Source: Zhihengliuella sp. (GTDB lineage: Bacteria > Actinomycetota > Actinomycetes > Actinomycetales > Micrococcaceae). From it: a DNA stretch of 64,000 bases. The notes beneath the pieces are model-generated. The model made no database searches, was not told the origin of the DNA, and saw nothing but the letters and a program-made list of their open reading frames with translations. The DNA is taken from contig NZ_JAPSJL010000003.1 of NCBI RefSeq assembly GCF_031178195.1, positions 419,390 through 483,389 on the forward strand. The letters run 5' to 3'. Positions 16,269-18,959 of the stretch are shown piece by piece (position 1 is the stretch's first letter; each line of letters opens with the position of its first letter). A program made the position numbers and the translations under genes.

Positions 16269-16886
16269 TCAGTCGTCCATCGGGCGGGCGACGCGGAGGA
16301 TGCGGAAGGACTTGGCCGTCGAGACCCGTTCGACGTCCCAGTCCGCCGGCATGCTCCGCCGGAGCCAGGCCAGCAGCGAGTCGGCGCCGAGGTTCTTCTG
16401 CACCACCAGCCAGGCGGATCCGCCCGGTGCGAGCCGGGGAAGCCACGTCAGCAGCAGCTCGTGGAGGGCGTCCTTGCCGATCCGGATGGGCGGGTTGGAC
16501 CAGATGGTGCCGAACGTCAGGTCTGCCGGCACGGATGCGGGCAGACCCGCCACAACATTGTCCAGACCCAGCGCGGCCGCGTTGTCCCGGGTGAGCCCCA
16601 GCGAGCGCTCGTTGACGTCGACGGCGTGCACCGTCGCCTCCGGTGAAGCCAGAGCCATGGTGAGCGCGATCGGGCCCCAGCCGCACCCGATGTCCAGGAG
16701 ATGGCCCGTCGCCGCCGGAGCCGGGACCTCCGAGAGGAGAACGGCCGTGCCCTTGTCTATCCCGTCCGGGCTGAAGATGCCTCCGGCTGTCTGGACGCGA
16801 CGCTCGGAGCCGCCCAGGTGGACGCTGATGGTCTTGCGCTTCTCCGGGGTTGCCGGCTGCGCGCTGAAATAATGCTCCGAACCCAT
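16269..16886 (-). CDS. Class I SAM-dependent methyltransferase (RsmC-like)
   Basis: MGSEHYFSAQP...GHLLDIGCGWGPIALTMALASPEATVHAVDVNERSLGLTRDNA...TIWSNPPIRIG. Confidence 0.9.
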   Translation of the reverse strand: MGSEHYFSAQPATPEKRKTISVHLGGSERRVQTAGGIFSPDGIDKGTAVLLSEVPAPAATGHLLDIGCGWGPIALTMALASPEATVHAVDVNERSLGLTRDNAAALGLDNVVAGLPASVPADLTFGTIWSNPPIRIGKDALHELLLTWLPRLAPGGSAWLVVQKNLGADSLLAWLRRSMPADWDVERVSTAKSFRILRVARPMDD

Positions 16887-16930
16887 GGGTGGAAGATTAT
16901 TCTCTGCCGGCGCACCCGGGCGAATCCACG

Positions 16931-16954
16931 AGTGATAGAGTTTTCTCTATGACT
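16931..16954. promoter_or_regulatory. Imperfect 24-nt palindrome overlapping a putative -10 and the start of a mini-ORF
   Basis: AGTGATAGAG-TTTT-CTCTATGACT; core ATAGAG/CTCTAT perfect. Confidence 0.5.
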
Positions 16955-16969
16955 TTCCTCCCTGCCTGA
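16949..16969 (+). CDS. Putative leaderless mini-ORF (MTFLPA*) upstream of hflX
   Basis: TAGAGT (16936-16941) + 7 nt + ATG, the same geometry as other leaderless starts in this window. Confidence 0.35.
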   Translation: MTFLPA

Positions 16970-16989
16970 CGAGCCCCCGGGGGACACCC

Positions 16990-17006
16990 GCTCGGGTCGC
17001 CCGAGC
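16990..17006. promoter_or_regulatory. Hairpin 1 in hflX upstream region
   Basis: GCTCGGG-tcg-CCCGAGC perfect. Confidence 0.5.
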
Positions 17007-17155
17007 AGAGGGCGGCACTGCCAGGCCGTGCCCCGCAACCCTGGCCCGACGGTCGGCCACGCGTCGTTGCCGACTCACCTCGCCGAGCCGGCGTCCGGTC
17101 GGAACCTGTCCGGAGCGTGCGGTCGAACCCGTCCCGAGGACCCCGGCTCGCCGTC

Positions 17156-17171
17156 ACGGGGCTCACCCCGT
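17156..17171. promoter_or_regulatory. Hairpin 2 in hflX upstream region
   Basis: ACGGGG-ctca-CCCCGT perfect. Confidence 0.5.
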
Positions 17172-17279
17172 CCTCCGGTGCTGCCGAGCCGGGACGGATT
17201 CGCCCTCGGCTGAGGCGCTGAGCTCCAATTCGTCGGTGGCGGCGACTATTCTTGATGTACCAGTCATTGCAAAGGAAAT

Positions 17280-18959
17280 ATGACCAACCAAAAGCACCCC
17301 GATTCGTCCTCCAGCTCGCCGAGGCCTCCCGGCTCCGAGAACACGGCGGAGCCGGCCGCGGACCCCGGCAGCACTGAGGACCACGGCCATGGCTTCAGCG
17401 AGCCGACGGCCGCCGAGCGAGCGGACGCGGAGATCAAGTCCGTCATCGACCGAATTCTCAGTACCGAGGCCGGCCCGGCGGCGTCGCCCGCCCCCAGCCG
17501 GAGGGGACTCGACGGCCGCGCCCGCGAACTCTCCGACCTCGAGGCCGAGCACAGCGAGCACGACGGCGAGCAGCAGGATCTTGCGGATCGTCGCGCGCTC
17601 CGGCGCGTGGCTGGTCTGTCGACAGAGCTCGAGGACGTCACCGAGGTCGAGTACCGGCAGTTGCGCCTCGAGCGCGTCGTGCTCGCGGGCGTGTGGTCGG
17701 AGGGCACGGCCGAGGATGCGGAGAACTCGCTGCGCGAGCTCGCCGCCCTGGCCGAGACCGCCGGTTCCGAGGTCCTCGACGGCGTCATCCAGCGCCGGCT
17801 CAAGCCCGATCCCGGGACGTTCCTCGGCTCCGGCAAGGCCGCCGAGCTCCGGGACATCGTCGCGGCGACCGGCGCCGACACCGTGGTCGTCGACTCCGAG
17901 CTCGCGCCGTCCCAGCGCCGCGGACTCGAGGACATCGTCAAGGTCAAGGTCATCGACCGCACCGCCTTGATCCTGGACATCTTCGCCCAGCACGCCAAGA
18001 GCCGCGAGGGCAAGGCCCAGGTCGAGCTCGCGCAGCTCGAGTACCTGCTGCCGCGTCTGCGCGGCTGGGGCGAGTCGATGTCCCGGCAGGCCGGCGGCCG
18101 CGTCGGCGCCGCAGGCGGCGGCATCGGCTCCCGCGGGCCCGGCGAGACGAAGATCGAGCTGGATCGTCGGCGCATCCGCAGCCGGATGTCCAAGCTGCGC
18201 CGCGAGATCGCCGCCATGAAACCCGCCCGTGAGGCGAAGCGCGCCAACCGCAAGCGGAACACCGTGCCGGCGGTTGCGATCGCGGGCTACACCAACGCCG
18301 GCAAGTCCTCGCTGCTGAACCGCCTGACCAACGCCGGGGTCCTCGTGGAGAACGCGCTCTTTGCGACGCTCGACCCGACCGTGCGCAAGGCGCAGACCCC
18401 GGATGGGGTCGGCTTCACTCTTGCGGACACCGTGGGCTTCGTCCGCTCCCTGCCCACGCAGCTGGTCGAGGCCTTCCGGTCCACGCTCGAGGAGGTCGCC
18501 GACTCGGACCTCATCCTGCACGTGGTCGACGGCTCCCACCCGGACCCGGAGAGCCAGATCCGTGCCGTGCGCGAAGTCCTCCGCGAGGTCGACGCCCATC
18601 TCGTGCCGGAGGTCATCGTCCTGAACAAGGCCGATGCAGCCGACCCGTTCGTCATCGAGCGGGTGCGTCAGCGCGAGCCGAGCACGGTGGTGGTCTCGGC
18701 CCGCACCGGCGCCGGCATCGACGAGCTGATCGAGGTGATCTCGCAGCGGATCCCGCGGCCCAACGTGCTCCTGGAGCTCCTCGTCCCGTACAGCCACGGC
18801 GAGGTCGTCAACCGGCTCCACGCCAATGACGCGGAGATCCTCTCCACCGAGCACGAGGAGACCGGTACGCGCCTGCGCGTCAAGGTCCGCGAGTCGCTCG
18901 CACCAGAGCTCGAGCCTTATCGGGTCGACCGCGCCGACGACGACGCCGCGGCCCAGTAG
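17280..18959 (+). CDS. hflX: GTPase HflX (ribosome-splitting factor family)
   Basis: GPGETKIELDRRRIRSRMSKLRREI...VAIAGYTNAGKSSLLNRLT...DTVGFVRSLP; RBS aaagga before ATG. Confidence 0.95.
   Translation: MTNQKHPDSSSSSPRPPGSENTAEPAADPGSTEDHGHGFSEPTAAERADAEIKSVIDRILSTEAGPAASPAPSRRGLDGRARELSDLEAEHSEHDGEQQDLADRRALRRVAGLSTELEDVTEVEYRQLRLERVVLAGVWSEGTAEDAENSLRELAALAETAGSEVLDGVIQRRLKPDPGTFLGSGKAAELRDIVAATGADTVVVDSELAPSQRRGLEDIVKVKVIDRTALILDIFAQHAKSREGKAQVELAQLEYLLPRLRGWGESMSRQAGGRVGAAGGGIGSRGPGETKIELDRRRIRSRMSKLRREIAAMKPAREAKRANRKRNTVPAVAIAGYTNAGKSSLLNRLTNAGVLVENALFATLDPTVRKAQTPDGVGFTLADTVGFVRSLPTQLVEAFRSTLEEVADSDLILHVVDGSHPDPESQIRAVREVLREVDAHLVPEVIVLNKADAADPFVIERVRQREPSTVVVSARTGAGIDELIEVISQRIPRPNVLLELLVPYSHGEVVNRLHANDAEILSTEHEETGTRLRVKVRESLAPELEPYRVDRADDDAAAQ

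Follow-up and report, generated by a model that had tools for sequence, protein, structure and literature searches.

Organization of the hflX locus

The window, that is, the whole 64 kb stretch of DNA analyzed here, belongs to a 3.15 Mb genome of the Micrococcaceae, a family of soil and skin bacteria. At the locus, a methyltransferase gene on the minus strand is followed by hflX, a gene for a DinG-like helicase, and then lexA, again on the minus strand. The methyltransferase gene (16269..16886, minus strand; Pfam MTS domain, 1.8e-29) is divergent from hflX (17280..18959, plus strand), the product of which carries the domains GTP-bdg_N (2.4e-32), GTP-bdg_M (6.1e-29), and MMR_HSR1 (1.2e-21). This divergent order is kept in most Micrococcaceae loci. 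hflX is a conserved gene for ribosome rescue and intrinsic macrolide tolerance, and its product splits 70S ribosomes. It is the sole full-length copy in the window genome, and one match per genome was obtained at E<=1e-100 in this genome and its relatives.

Between the two genes, a palindrome, AGTGATAGAG-TTTT-CTCTATGACT (16931..16954, not assigned to a strand), overlaps both a promoter and the start of a very short reading frame. The promoter is the extended -10 element of the leader transcript, TG-A-TAGAGT (16933..16941, plus strand), in which TG occupies 16933-16934 and TAGAGT occupies 16936-16941. The reading frame is a leaderless mini-ORF, ATG ACT TTC CTC CCT GCC TGA (MTFLPA*; 16949..16969, plus strand), and its position, length class, and stop are conserved in relatives. 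The hflX leader that follows (16970..17270, plus strand) is poorly conserved in sequence even within the genus, and the 3' arm conserved elsewhere was not found in it. The leader contains two perfect plus-strand hairpins, GCTCGGG-TCG-CCCGAGC of 7 bp (16990..17006) and ACGGGG-CTCA-CCCCGT of 6 bp (17156..17171), both at chance level. On the same strand lie a -10-like TATTCT (17247..17252), which by its conservation is a probable second, basal hflX promoter; AGTCAT (17262..17267), a 6-nt complement of the mini-ORF start and a weak candidate 3' arm that is not conserved in the sister species; and the hflX Shine-Dalgarno (SD) sequence AAAGGA (17271..17276). The hflX ATG follows at 17280. A first-pass annotation had listed the palindrome, TAGAGT, the mini-ORF, the hairpins, a longer GCCGAG...CTCGGC pairing, and the hflX RBS, and all of them are present in the sequence at the positions it gave.

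Known regulatory signals were also searched for. No Rfam family matched at its gathering score in the window, and none matched at E<=5 around the leader. The WhiB7/WblC site, GAAAWY, is absent from the plus strand of 16860-17290, and an intrinsic terminator scan of the window returned a single weak match at 17230-17245, with 0.3 expected, which was not convincing. By geometry, the divergent methyltransferase gene also appears leaderless, with a putative -10 TAATCT (16894..16899, minus strand) 7 nt before its ATG (TAATCT-7nt-ATG, 16899-16886).

Distribution and probable translation of the mini-ORF

For comparison, the methyltransferase-hflX intergenic regions of Micrococcaceae were reduced to 180 distinct sequences, and a mini-ORF was counted where TAnnnT was followed, at a spacing of 6-7 nt, by an ATG opening a frame of at most 10 codons. 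The leaderless mini-ORF that the first-pass annotation had proposed proved to be a recurring element, as it was present in 88 of the 180 intergenics, compared with a mean of 1.7 (maximum 6) in dinucleotide shuffles and 1 in the reverse complement. On both strands of the 64 kb window, the element at 16933-16969 is the sole instance, and the count was 0 in sampled hflX loci of other families. When 8-nt spacing and longer ORFs are allowed, 98 intergenics are included. In these, the -10 element lies 6-8 nt before the ATG, the spacing is 7 in 74, and TGn, the mark of an extended -10, is present in 69. The inner bases of the -10 vary freely before an unchanged peptide, with TA...T kept.

The ORFs are usually 3-7 codons long, reaching 12-15 in a few genera, and their peptides recur by lineage: MFLIFE in Arthrobacter, Pseudarthrobacter, and Paenarthrobacter; MTYL in Paeniglutamicibacter; MTLIYS in Glutamicibacter; and MRLFK in Sinomonas and others. 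MTLIFV, MTFVFV, and MTLFFV form one recurring group; MLIFL, MWIFLR/MWIYLR, and MFLLFV were also found, and the shortest are MKK, MWNK, and MANK. Judged by position, promoter, and form, the window mini-ORF is a member of this family. Intergenic regions that contain a mini-ORF are long (median 416 nt), whereas the median is 146 nt for those without, of which 70 of 82 are under 200 nt. On an HflX tree, built quickly and with many of its forks unresolved, the trait required 15 changes compared with 31 in shuffles; this is as expected if losses of the mini-ORF accompany shortening of the leader.

Selection at the peptide level was assessed from substitution patterns. Pooled over peptide classes, pN/pS was 0.47 in the ORF and 1.02 directly downstream; constraint was weakest in the class of the window mini-ORF (MT, 6 codons), for which the value was 0.79. 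For MFLIFE, the ORF had an entropy of 0.48 bits per site, whereas the preceding spacer had 1.45 and the stretch that follows had 1.41. Stop codons interchange at a fixed place (46 TGA, 29 TAA, and 23 TAG), and in the longer MWIHLTYSRPRG class the changes are synonymous only. Since peptides recur, pN/pS is 0.47, and stop codons interchange, the mini-ORF is probably translated, in line with the first-pass suggestion that it may be. These comparisons support the view that, in much of Micrococcaceae, a long hflX leader begins with a leaderless mini-ORF that is constrained at the protein level.

Pairing of the mini-ORF with downstream RNA

In the clade that carries the palindrome, 18 leaders have a segment around 98-144 that complements nucleotides 1-9 of the mini-ORF. 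The corresponding helix, AUGACUYUG/CARAGUCAU, shows 88.9% standard pairs over 13 distinct sequences, which were picked because they pair and are also mutually related. Seven cells are altered on both sides, and the covariation score is 0.242; neither value was reached in any of 500 shuffles, and slid registers gave at most 0.104. At pair 7-18, nine sequences have U-A and four have C-G. In the MFLIFE clade, it is the 3' half of the ORF that pairs, its partner being UACUYGRAG at a distance of 110-167 nt downstream (CUUYGAGUA/UACUYGRAG), with compensatory changes in two leaders (L057 and L170). In L182, L187, and L025, the 3' arm is followed by a U-rich tract.

The clearest mechanistic case is provided by the ACETYLTRANSFERASE operons, in which the mini-ORF and hflX are separated by an acetyltransferase (GNAT) gene (L010, L021, L030, L069, L202, L211, L225, and L228, of which L069 is Micrococcus lylae). 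In L030 and L228, the mini-ORF is ~870-1050 nt before hflX. All of these lineages show complementarity between the mini-ORF and the RNA around the GNAT ribosome-binding site (RBS). In L030, GUUCCU and GUUCGUC of the mini-ORF match AGGAAC and GACGAAC at the GNAT RBS region, and in L021, AUGUGGAUCUUC is complementary to GAGGAUCCACAU, the GNAT start codon included. This pairing is present in most MFE folds of the GNAT leaders, and the duplex was significant at p<=0.01 in 5/8 and not significant in 3/8. From this complementarity, a ribosome on the mini-ORF would be predicted to free the GNAT RBS.

Over all 98 leaders, the duplex between the mini-ORF and downstream RNA had a mean z of -0.44 compared with +0.11 for control windows, and just 11/98 leaders reached p<=0.05 singly. 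Compared with shuffles (8 for each of 83 leaders), the leaders are slightly more structured, with a mean z of -1.1, and no k-mer beyond composition is common to all of them. A general rule in which the mini-ORF directly masks the hflX SD was rejected, as SD accessibility changed by +0.003 on blocking the mini-ORF compared with +0.011 in shuffles; for the acetyltransferase RBS, such masking does apply in most leaders that have that gene.

The serial hairpins that the first-pass annotation had emphasized did not withstand comparison. The window leader contains 2 perfect hairpins of at least 6 bp, compared with 0.81 in shuffles (p 0.21), and its longest stem gave p 0.24. Folding of the whole leader gave z values of -0.57 and, in a second run, +0.68 against shuffles, and the named hairpins are not conserved in the alignment of four same-genus leaders. 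Hairpins at the level of composition, unconserved and in a leader no more structured than shuffles, were rejected as a conserved switch.

The palindrome at the mini-ORF promoter

The start of the mini-ORF falls inside the right arm of the palindrome, which is present in exactly one copy per genome in the window genome and its relatives. In seven sampled genomes, the palindrome exists without a mini-ORF (L005, L013, L023, L159, and L161, and in degenerate form L130 and L139); in the first five it reads AGTGAT-N12-ATCACT or near, and hflX is 49-99 nt away from these copies without a mini-ORF. The right arm is TATGACT with a mini-ORF and AATCACT or near without one. The palindrome is a DNA element separate from the mini-ORF. 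Because it is single-copy, no regulon or regulator can be named for it, and the palindrome as the operator of a regulon was rejected. The first-pass alternative that it serves as an operator is partly upheld in that the palindrome persists in genomes without a mini-ORF and is weakened by the single site.

Looser TGATTG...CAATCA palindromes that resemble the one at hflX occur elsewhere in relatives: before ABC transporter genes (L251, L255, and L256), before paaZ-like genes (L246 and L250), and before acetyltransferase-like genes after rplA (L247 and L252), the gene names beside these sites having been read from sequence.

Proposed regulation of hflX

In the relatives, leaderless geometry, peptide constraint, and pairing with compensatory changes occur at the same locus. 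We assign a probability of about two in three to the reading in which the mini-ORF is a leaderless-uORF attenuator of hflX, or of GNAT-hflX, in Micrococcaceae. The extended -10 would place the transcription start at or beside the A of the mini-ORF ATG; because the transcript would begin there, a ribosome would load at the RNA 5' end without an RBS and would then translate the 3-7 codons. The mini-ORF RNA would double as the 5' arm of a long-range helix with its 3' arm ~100-165 nt downstream. When the ribosome finishes and departs, the helix would form and expression would be off; when a ribosome is held on the mini-ORF, the helix would stay open and expression would be on, so that HflX would be expected to increase when ribosomes stall. 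The controlled step would be translation in the acetyltransferase lineages and probably transcription elsewhere; in leaders without GNAT, a different step is probable because masking the mini-ORF leaves hflX SD accessibility unchanged. Because of HflX biology, a macrolide or lincosamide is a plausible inducer, and MRLFK and the IFV-like peptides presumably resemble known arrest peptides. If this reading holds, the rescue factor, encoded by the only hflX copy, would itself be switched by the state of the ribosome, through a very small attenuator design in which one ORF doubles as anti-RBS or pairing arm, and whether leaderless initiation reports free 70S ribosomes would become testable. Several observations stand against it: for drug-dependent stalling, peptides such as MKK and MTYL are very short; hflX SD accessibility shows no general gain when the mini-ORF is masked; single-leader significance is limited to the 11 leaders noted above and misses three of the eight acetyltransferase leaders; the window has no convincing intrinsic terminator; and most hflX mRNA may come from the proximal promoter.

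The window species itself poses a difficulty. At its usual place, the conserved 3' arm is absent from the window species (L001) and from its sister (G001; L002), though two congeners of the window species, L003 and L004, keep one. The window duplex test gave z +2.1 and p 1.0, and only AGTCAT at 17262-17267 (6 nt) and UUUCCU against the SD AGGAAA remain as complements. As the conserved 3' arm is missing there, an attenuator function can only be inferred for the window genome. The refolding of the leader by a ribosome stalled on the mini-ORF, proposed in the first-pass annotation, gains from the compensated pairing in relatives and lacks its conserved arm in the very sequence for which it was proposed. 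A tentative explanation, to which we give clearly less than even odds, is that the window species carries a remnant attenuator, which has kept its promoter and mini-ORF but not the RNA switch, with hflX transcribed from the proximal promoter at 17247-17252. A leader no more structured than shuffles fits a remnant, as does the absence of a mini-ORF from L005 of the same genus. The conserved proximal -10 also agrees with it: GACTATYCTTRA is conserved in the genus, CACTATTCTG is found in Arthrobacter-type leaders just before hflX, and TATTCT at 17247-17252 probably supplies basal hflX transcription. However, the mini-ORF, its exact 7-nt spacing, and its stop are all intact in the window, and one of the two remaining complements could act as a new arm replacing the old one. 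That the palindrome is instead the operator for an hflX repressor or activator, perhaps shared with the methyltransferase gene, and that the mini-ORF is incidental in this clade is rather unlikely. Such an operator would suit the persistence of the palindrome, mostly with AGTGAT...ATCACT arms, close to hflX in genomes without a mini-ORF, a TTTTCYCT spacer more constant than promoter function requires, and the related palindromes that relatives carry upstream of paaZ-like, ABC-transporter, and acetyltransferase genes. It would leave a single copy per genome with no regulon, and mini-ORFs are present even in clades without the palindrome; moreover, an operator accounts for the palindrome but not for the ORF, its stop codon, or the pairing.

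It is very improbable that constraint on RNA pairing alone shaped the mini-ORF, the frame being untranslated and its hydrophobic peptide sequences following incidentally from pyrimidine-rich arms. The mini-ORF is indeed a pairing arm in several clades, but pairing alone does not agree with the pN/pS difference from the adjoining stretch, with three stop codon types at a fixed place, with the synonymous-only changes of the longer MWIHLTYSRPRG class, or with an ATG kept 6-8 nt after TAnnnT. A further idea concerns what the attenuator would sense. Initiation on leaderless mRNAs and AUGs is carried out mainly by undissociated 70S ribosomes (PMC9031893). Because leaderless mRNAs bind mainly intact 70S, the substrate of HflX, the mini-ORF might sense idle or unrecycled 70S ribosomes and set hflX by feedback, as a sensor of the HflX substrate and not of one drug; we consider this a long shot. 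If true, it would explain why a 5'-terminal start is kept in every mini-ORF lineage despite variation from MKK to MWIFLR, as the ribosome on the mini-ORF would do little beyond initiating and terminating.

Comparison with known systems

Control of hflX-family genes by a uORF is already known. In Listeria, the 14-codon RLR ORF of rli80 controls hflXr via transcription attenuation (PMC6310831). As in the attenuator proposed here, a short ORF in the leader precedes an hflX-family gene, segments of the leader pair, and a ribosome on the ORF switches the gene. However, the Listeria system belongs to a Firmicute, regulates an accessory resistance paralogue, and uses a 14-codon ORF with RLR and an intrinsic terminator, whereas the Micrococcaceae ORF is leaderless, has 3-7 codons as a rule, serves itself as the pairing arm, and precedes the only full-length hflX copy per genome. 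The RLR motif of the rli80 type is absent from MTFLPA in the window, and MRLFK of some relatives has only MRL. The uORFC-6-1 motif, found before hflX mostly in Bacillales with a conserved RLR peptide (PMC8632094), likewise combines a uORF with covarying RNA upstream of hflX. It is set apart by description, as its structure lies wholly downstream of the uORF start codon, while the Micrococcaceae mini-ORF is leaderless and has no RLR.

The acetyltransferase-hflX lineages resemble erm-type translational attenuators (PMC11264731) in that the start of the next gene is sequestered and would be freed by a ribosome on the uORF; in erm, hairpins between the uORF and the gene switch, whereas here the mini-ORF pairs with the RBS itself. 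In mycobacteria, conserved cysteine-rich uORFs have been proposed as attenuators (PMC4633059). These also are conserved short uORFs before an actinobacterial operon, but cysteine sensing via Cys codons is proposed for them, and the hflX mini-ORFs have no Cys codons. In Streptomyces, hflX is a member of the WblC regulon (PMC7157823), which also ties an actinobacterial hflX to translation stress; unlike the mini-ORF, WblC/WhiB7 is a protein activator that acts at GAAAWY 3 nt upstream of the -35, a site that the hflX strand of the window lacks. A Micrococcaceae hflX leader, or a leaderless actinobacterial version of this control, was not found in the literature searched, which covered papers available without subscription.

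Additional features of the leaders

In MFLIFE leaders (e.g., L047, L049, and L051) and L185, a conserved RNA-like element, GCGAYGCAGG-loop-CCUUCCGC, lies 12-71 nt past the mini-ORF stop. Its variable apical stem keeps pairing (AGGU/ACCU and AGGC/GCCU); the element is real in the MFLIFE clade and missing from most others. A GUAACC/GGUUAC hairpin lies right after the mini-ORF stop in L025, L179, L180, L182, L183, and L187, and a second GGUAACC further down in this genus makes a 1:2 versus 2:3 switch possible.

An in-frame RBS and start upstream of the usual hflX ATG were observed in L018, L032, L040, L049, L011, L025, and L026. This upstream start spans the conserved proximal -10, CACTATTCTG being read as His-Tyr-Ser, which suggests that a longer HflX isoform may be made from the long transcript. 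Finally, the record of L033 (WNZI01000016.1), titled Vibrio cholerae strain 35D, contains an Arthrobacter-type hflX locus and is a mislabelled or contaminated record.
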